From: a virus
Strand: one strand, 5' to 3'
IMG/VR virus record: IMGVR_UViG_3300027896_000177
Span: 1-27,737 of that record
DNA: 27,737 nt
The notes under the pieces are model-generated. The model was not told the DNA's origin, did no database searches, and saw nothing but the letters and a program-made list of their open reading frames with translations. This document shows positions 2,076 through 2,466 of the stretch, piece by piece; within the stretch, counting starts at the first letter, position 1; the number at the start of each line of letters is the position of its first letter. A program made the position numbers and the translations under genes.

Positions 2076-2101
2076 AAAGAAAAAAATACCCTCTGAGGGT
2101 A
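2076..2101 (-). terminator. Intrinsic terminator, minus strand
   Basis: On the minus strand a 6-bp stem TACCCT/AGGGTA with a 3-base loop (2087-2101) is followed by a run of seven pyrimidines, mostly U, then CTTTTT. It ends leftward transcription just before promoter A, and would form the 3' end of the structured RNA to its right. On the plus strand the stem is preceded by As and followed by no T run, so it should act on minus-strand transcripts. Confidence 0.7.
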
Positions 2102-2466
2102 ATTACTAATCTTACTGTTACTTACTGAATACTTCTTGATTGCTGCCTAGAGGTGGACAGACCTAGCCCTCCCACAAGAGGCTTGGCCTTCACAGATTCT
2201 GCCTGTCGGAGTATCTGACCCGCGAGCCGTTCGATGCATGGGCGCTAGCTTCGCCACCCATTGTCCTGTCTCAGCATCTATCCCGTAGCAAGACTGTCCC
2301 CGAGACGCTACTGCCAGTGCGCGTCCATCTCGGCGGGATTGTCAATTAAATTGACAATGAAAAAAGCGGTTAAGAAAGACTCCGTGGAAATCACCCCTTT
2401 TGGAGGTGGAGCCCTTTCGGGCCAGAGTCTTACTTAACCGCTTTCTCACCGGGTTTCCATCCCCAG
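2102..2466 (-). ncRNA. Large structured non-coding RNA, class not recognised
   Basis: No gene lies in 2031-2498. Two folded domains are visible.

The right domain (2363-2444) has a 12-bp stem (2363-2374 with 2433-2444) and a 7-bp stem (2376-2382 with 2425-2431). These enclose a GAAA-capped hairpin near 2408-2423 and a second hairpin near 2391-2407; a further small hairpin lies at 2449-2466.

The left domain has a closing stem (2155-2160 with 2294-2299) around three hairpins: 2162-2186, 2193-2217, and a coaxial 2233-2237/2274-2278 plus 2238-2244/2255-2261. A 9-bp bulged stem joins 2300-2308 with 2321-2333.

Several pairs are G-U when read on the minus strand but C-A on the plus strand, which supports minus-strand transcription, as does the terminator at 2076-2101. 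It may be an independent RNA or a long 3' UTR of the primase operon. I do not recognise an Rfam class. Confidence 0.5.
2338..2358. repeat. Perfect 21-bp palindrome between the two RNA domains
   Basis: Ten bases ATTGTCAATT, a central A, then the exact reverse complement AATTGACAAT. It lies between the two folded RNA domains. A perfect odd-length palindrome of this size is typical of a dimeric repressor operator, and it also contains TTGTCA/TTGACA, which resemble -35 hexamers. It could alternatively form an RNA hairpin. No -10 box at the right spacing was found. Confidence 0.6.

Follow-up and report, generated by a model that had tools for sequence, protein, structure and literature searches.

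A phage RNA of the Rfam family RF02932 has a multiply pseudoknotted fold and a loop word repeated at its 3' end, and is possibly a self-targeting R-loop RNA

The locus and its gene context

The window analysed here is the whole virus record IMGVR_UViG_3300027896_000177 (27,737 bases). Its stretch from 2076 to 2466, which a first-pass annotation had described as a gene-free, multi-domain structured RNA of the minus strand, is flanked by a Toprim primase gene (2499-3353, minus strand) and a small minus-strand ORF starting at approximately 2030. In accordance with that description, the ORF list contains no convincing gene in this stretch; the overlapping ORFs of at least 50 amino acids are mechanical ones only and comprise at most 58 amino acids. 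The minus strand folds with -151.6 kcal/mol (z -4.8), and none of 100 shuffled sequences folded as well. The plus strand also folds well, but more weakly than the minus strand (z -3.0). The stems named in the annotation are present in the sequence, and the compensatory changes in homologous phages, which it had set as a check, were found, as the helices covary. On this comparative evidence, the minus-strand structure is beyond chance. The features of the locus are listed in Table 1.

Table 1. Sequence and structure features at the RNA locus, in window positions
Feature	Position	Strand	Basis
Promoter-like element TTGACA-N17-TGTAAT, overlapping the primase stop codon	2474..2502	-	Sequence; same site and spacing in MW202545 and MW202426
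Domain A, pseudoknotted terminator-like element (order A1 < B1 < A2 < B2, T-run)	2360..2467	-	Covariation
Domain A, A1	~2452-2464	-	
Domain A, B1	2423-2443	-	Pairs with B2
Domain A, A2 (two candidate registers)	within 2385-2410	-	
Domain A, B2	2364-2384	-	Pairs with B1
Domain A, T6 after the B1/B2 stem	2365-2360	-	
Perfect 21-bp palindrome ATTGTCAATTAAATTGACAAT between domain A and RNA B	2338..2358	.	Sequence
RNA B core = RF02932 (P1, P2, P3) with pseudoknots PK1, PK2 and P4	2218..2335	-	Rfam match, covariation
Hairpin P6, loop with CTCCG-X; X = AGGCAG(AATC), plus-strand 2195-2204	2191..2217	-	P6 z 3.8
Hairpin P5 (AAGGC...GGCTAGGTCTGTCC) between X and X'	2152..2190	-	z 6.9
X', direct repeat of X, after CCACC, at the 3' end of the conserved RNA	2138..2148	-	
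Tail following X', poor in C and rich in A/T and purines (candidate hybrid zone)	2102..2137	-	Average over 36 phages
Terminator-like hairpin TACCCTC-AGA-GGGTA, then T7	2087..2101	-	1 found vs 0.7 expected

A promoter and a pseudoknotted terminator-like element upstream of the core

The promoter-like element predicts a transcript start at approximately 2467, which matches the start placed by the first-pass annotation. The element falls below the requirement of our promoter scan (A at position 2 of the -10 box); its counterparts, at the same place and with the same spacing, read TTGACA-N17-TATAAT in MW202545 and TTGACA-N17-TACAAT in MW202426. The promoter is followed by A1, B1, a hairpin, A2, B2, and a T-run, together designated domain A. 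B1 and B2 form an imperfect 21-bp stem, which holds a 12-bp and a 7-bp block and encloses a GCCC-GAAA-GGGC hairpin; the T-run then follows on the minus strand. Domain A was found upstream of the core in the window phage, in MW202545, and in approximately 12 others. The sequence of the B1/B2 stem (approximately 16 to 28 bp) is unrelated between phages, yet the two strands are always complementary (z 9.5, 13 phages). The A1/A2 pairing, which crosses B1/B2, covaries as well (11 phages, 0 of 5000 permutations as good), the window's own A1/A2 being the weakest among these cases.

In many phages, the core RNA directly follows the primase gene and domain A is missing. MW202426 (L198) carries, at approximately 3320-3460 and after a primase with 36% identity, a domain A-like arrangement of promoter, pseudoknot, and terminator (read by eye), behind which an RF02932 match was not detectable. 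The occurrence of each part without the other suggests that domain A is probably an element separate from the RF02932 RNA, either a small RNA or an attenuator. As domain A also has a terminator-like stem and T-run of its own, the earlier view of both domains as one large RNA is unproven. Pairing of domain A with RNA B in trans, in the manner of RNA I and RNA II, was considered and rejected (22.0 within loci versus 23.3 across loci). The palindrome between domain A and RNA B is possibly an operator; it is missing at the same place in the closest relative (L017) and in MW202545.

The core belongs to RF02932 and is multiply pseudoknotted

A cmscan search of the whole window returned a single Rfam family, RF02932 (Betaproteobacteria-1 RNA), with 98.9 bits against a gathering score of 49.4 and over the full model (positions 1-120). 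The second domain of the first-pass annotation, which had not been recognised there, thus has a member of this known family as its core. The Rfam entry assigns no function to RF02932, and none of the papers searched names RF02932 or "Betaproteobacteria-1 RNA".

RNAalifold recovered only P3 and part of P5 from a MAFFT alignment, because MAFFT misaligns P1 and because pseudoknots are excluded. Therefore, alignment-free permutation tests, in which the pairing of a 5' strand with its own 3' strand is compared to its pairing with the 3' strands of other loci, and a pair count for the named structure were used instead. Among 66 representatives, covariation was detected for P1 (z 13.2), P2 (z 14.6), PK2 (z 15.5), and P4, which crosses P3 (z 11.9); control pairings gave z values between -1.1 and 1.1. 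PK1 (z 4.8), P6 (z 3.8), and P5 (z 6.9) covary in the phages alone with a refined window. P3 is almost invariant and 98.8% paired in a 40-sequence alignment, for which the conventional count yielded 118 cells with both sides changed versus 39.6 in shuffles and a covariation score of 0.308, compared to at most 0.089 when slid. PK2 joins the P2 loop to GCAUC/GCACC between P4 and P3 (GATGC/GCATC in the window); both sides have changed in four of its five pairs, and the Rfam consensus shows no pairing for these strands. P4 consists of GGGT../..CCC, and PK1 pairs the P1 loop with the start of the P2 loop. Covariation thus supports, beside the Rfam helices, two or three pseudoknots that are not drawn by Rfam. 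Given these helices and pseudoknots, RNA B has a compact, multiply pseudoknotted fold, which reaches approximately 70 nt past the Rfam model. The closing stem around three hairpins described in the annotation holds as a minimum-free-energy picture, but the conserved fold is pseudoknotted. Likewise, a hairpin with T7 is present at the end, where a terminator had been noted, but it is statistically weak (Table 1).

Relatives in phages, bacterial chromosomes, and Tn7-like transposons

The exact 20-mer GGGTGGCGAAGCNAGCGCCC, taken from the most conserved part of the RNA, occurs in 42 contigs of viruses and in 11 of genomes; two of the genome hits are due to chance. Four further loci came from a broader pattern, including one on a contig already known from the 20-mer. 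Named phage records with the RNA are MW202545 (L044) and Acidovorax phage AP1. RNA matches were detected in 59 of 398 genomes of one Burkholderiaceae-type family and in 7 of 300 genomes sampled from a second betaproteobacterial order, and some of these bacteria carry as many as four copies; 14 control genomes gave no match, and a nucleotide search returned no plasmid relatives. Four classes can be distinguished by sequence, one from phages and three from chromosomes.

At phage-class loci, genes for a ParB-like protein, an SF2 helicase, and a primase often precede the RNA. The same primase family is present at 25 loci, at 24 of them directly upstream of the RNA, the helicase at 21 and the ParB-like gene at 16 loci; a primase neighbour is missing at many phage loci. 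In other phages, judging by the protein sequences, the RNA is surrounded by genes for recombination or DNA modification or separates two blocks of divergently oriented genes. Five tRNAs and a tRNA-Sec-like match lie between primase and RNA in MW202545 (4242-4814).

Ten of the 11 class 3 loci (L163-L173) adjoin a TnsA-TnsB-TnsC-TniQ module, in which TnsC (TniB) and TniQ were assigned by Pfam hits and TnsB and TnsA by position and reading of the sequence. Other copies adjoin a second Tn7-like lineage with a fused TnsAB as well as TniB and TniQ. At the class 1 loci examined, no Tn7-like genes adjoin the RNA. In most of the pairs compared, the class 3 RNA block has sharp edges, at approximately -107 to -128 on one side and +225 to +271 on the other; transposon terminal inverted repeats were not found around the class 3 loci. 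Tn7-like neighbours recur at L163-L173, L176, L182, L172, L055, and L105, the RNA being located near tniQ or tnsAB. Both lineages have the motif GTACCCTCTCATAAAAAGGG (with small variants) in common, which is found near the tnsA-side end in L168-L170, L163-L165, and L173 and upstream of the RNA in L105, L125, L131, and L055. The latter four loci also contain a small ORF between tnsAB and the RNA (approximately -900 to -450), which presumably is DUF6471-like, judging from how it reads. Class 2 RNAs have a structured 5' extension and are followed, between +170 and +370, by recurring words resembling GGATATGCTCAC and by an element resembling GGCCGCTGCGCGGCTGGCAGCCAGG (e.g., in L119, L141, and L118).

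A variable loop word is repeated at the 3' end of the RNA

The most informative feature of the locus is a repeated word, X/X', which the first-pass annotation had missed. Past the end of the Rfam model, most phage members have a hairpin loop that opens with CUCCG and continues with a variable word X of approximately 6-12 nt, followed by P5, CACCA, and X', a copy of X approximately 50 nt downstream. X varies between loci and matches X' within a locus: over 75 loci, the mean match was 15.3 within loci, and the maximum in 2000 permutations was 12.45. The phage representatives gave a z of 10.3 (0 of 2000 permutations), control windows -0.9 and 0.6, and class 3 gave a z of 2.6; class 1 has too few representatives for this test. 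In class 2, no repeat was detected (z -0.3), and this class has lost X/X'. At the same place, the match comprises 7 nt in AP1 (GAGCAGA) and 7 nt in MW202545 (GGGTATC). In the window, X reads AGGCAG-AATC and X' reads AGGCAGCAATC, with an exact match of just 6 nt (10 with one inserted base). A mobile element bounded at X/X' was considered and rejected, since the class 1 homology extends past X' to approximately +260 and upstream to approximately -120.

The mismatches between X and X' are one-sided. Over 55 loci and with the conserved anchor excluded, 13 G>A, six T>A, and one T>C mismatch were counted in the direction from X to X', compared to none for A>G, C>T, and A>T (transition direction, p 1.2e-4). 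The anchor beside the word mostly reads CCG at X and CCA at X'. Such changes are those tolerated if X in the RNA faces the template strand of X', where rG.dT and rU.dG wobble pairs would form. The G>A excess could be partly due to composition, X' being A-rich. C>A mismatches were absent (0 of 78), and a plain drift towards A explains the pattern poorly, though the sample is small.

When helices within and across loci were compared in the phages, neither X nor X' had a complementary stretch in the remainder of the RNA or in the 100 nt that follow. The partner is therefore to be sought outside; it could be the template strand of the DNA, a transcript in antisense, or a factor acting in trans. 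Averaged over 36 phages, the 60 nt past X' have an A+T fraction of 0.54-0.60 versus approximately 0.45 and a C fraction of 0.12-0.18 versus approximately 0.24, with a GC skew of up to +0.4. DNA of this A/T-rich, C-poor, and G-skewed kind favours stable RNA-DNA hybrids.

A self-targeting R-loop and its alternatives

We infer that the partner of X may be DNA and tentatively propose that the RNA is a self-targeting R-loop RNA, for which the priming of a replication origin would be the likeliest use in phages; we consider this quite possible, if short of probable. The locus would give rise to a non-coding, pseudoknotted minus-strand RNA, consisting of the RF02932 core and its 3' extension, that presents X in a hairpin loop. 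Approximately 50 nt after X, RNA polymerase would transcribe the identical X', and X could anneal to the template strand of the DNA at X', immediately behind the enzyme, thereby seeding a persistent RNA-DNA hybrid (R-loop) that extends into the purine-rich and A/T-rich DNA beyond. In phages, this hybrid might open the DNA, and the processed 3' end of the RNA might serve as a replication primer, as in ColE1 RNA II, next to the helicase and primase genes that the phage itself carries. In the window phage, the upstream pseudoknotted terminator of domain A, with its own promoter, would probably set the amount of RNA.

Covariation, the identity of X and X', the one-sided mismatches, the lack of a partner within the RNA, the base composition, and the gene neighbours count for this proposal, and they support the R-loop step better than the origin step. 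What argues against an origin role is that relatives of the RNA also occur in chromosomes of bacteria and in Tn7-like transposons, neither of which would be expected to hold such an origin. The phage loci without a primase neighbour, the lack of X/X' in class 2, and the short match in the window count against the R-loop and origin together. In the complete phages MW202545 and AP1, the cumulative GC skew does not switch at the RNA, gene orientation being a confounding factor for the skew.

A variable word that occurs both in a loop and at the 3' terminus and lacks a partner in cis would also fit a phage sRNA or sponge in which X and X' are duplicate sites for one co-evolving trans partner, be it a target mRNA, an antisense RNA, or a dimeric protein, and repeated seeds are known in sRNAs. 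A shared partner, however, predicts symmetric mismatches, whereas those observed are one-sided, and X offers no conserved sequence that would suit a host target. The same asymmetry would be expected if X' were covered by an antisense transcript. On balance, this explanation appears rather unlikely to us. We regard it as unlikely to a greater degree that the RNA is a cis-regulatory leader or attenuator, with domain A as its terminator, that controls downstream early genes via readthrough or hybrid-induced pausing and has no role in replication. A gene starts 30-100 nt from X' in several phages, and domain A is terminator-like with competing or pseudoknotted stems, which speaks for such a leader; but the downstream genes differ between phages, a terminator-like hairpin sits between the RNA and the next gene in the window phage, and attenuation does not need the identity of X and X'.

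The regular association of class 3 with a TnsA-TnsB-TnsC-TniQ module and of other copies with the TnsAB-fused lineage could also mean that the RNA is a component or target of a mobile element, i.e., a Tn7-like attachment site or guide, and that the phage copies are hitchhikers. This is very improbable in our assessment, given that such genes are absent beside the class 1 loci examined and that no terminal repeats were detected that would link the RNA to the end of a transposon. Moreover, the left cargo is common to the copies at a variable distance, so that a fixed target outside the transposon seems a poor description of the RNA. A broader form of the R-loop proposal, which we rate as quite improbable, would regard RF02932 as a family of self-targeting R-loop RNAs with an evolvable seed, acting as origin primers in phages and as part of transposition or target selection in Tn7-like elements, RNA-guided without Cas proteins.

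With the R-loop proposal, a widespread Rfam family to which no function is assigned gains a specific and falsifiable mechanism, in which a loop word matches the DNA downstream. If it is true, a phage RNA would have a protein-independent way to find and open DNA, representing a structured counterpart of ColE1 RNA II, and there would be a starting point to explain why the RNA recurs in phages, chromosomes, and two Tn7-like lineages. New in this study are the 3' half of the RF02932 RNA, its pseudoknots, the regulatory-looking upstream element, and the proposed DNA-pairing rule.

Comparison with known systems

RNA B of the window shares sequence and P1-P3 with RF02932 over the full 120-position model. 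The model ends before P6, P5, and X/X', leaves the strands of PK2 unpaired, and does not include domain A. The large structured RNAs GOLLD and ROOL, to which the first-pass annotation had likened the locus, are similar in their occurrence in phages and other mobile DNA. However, the RF02932 core is much smaller and folds differently, and neither family was matched in the Rfam search, be it at the gathering threshold in the window or up to E 5 in 1950-2560.

Phage T4 starts replication from R-loops at oriF and oriG in A+T-rich DNA (PMC3016281). The RF02932 locus resembles these origins in combining a phage promoter, a transcript, and A+T-rich downstream DNA beside replication functions. In T4, R-loop formation needs no specific sequence (PMC3016281), whereas the present proposal involves a structured RNA whose seed matches the DNA.

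ColE1 RNA II is a structured transcript that acts without an initiator protein, forms a persistent hybrid with its template, is cut by RNase H, and then primes DNA synthesis (PMC5043065). Both RNAs are structured non-coding transcripts with an internal loop word equal to the RNA-like strand near the 3' end; in the RF02932 RNA, this match of a loop word to the non-template strand is clear family-wide and comprises 6 nt in the window. There is no relation in sequence or in Rfam between the two, and no counterpart of the antisense RNA I, for which domain A was considered, was found at the RF02932 locus. The seed of ColE1 RNA II is reportedly a G-stretch pairing with a C-stretch of the template, whereas the RF02932 RNA has, instead of a G-run, a word X that varies between loci at a spacing of approximately 50 nt from its copy.
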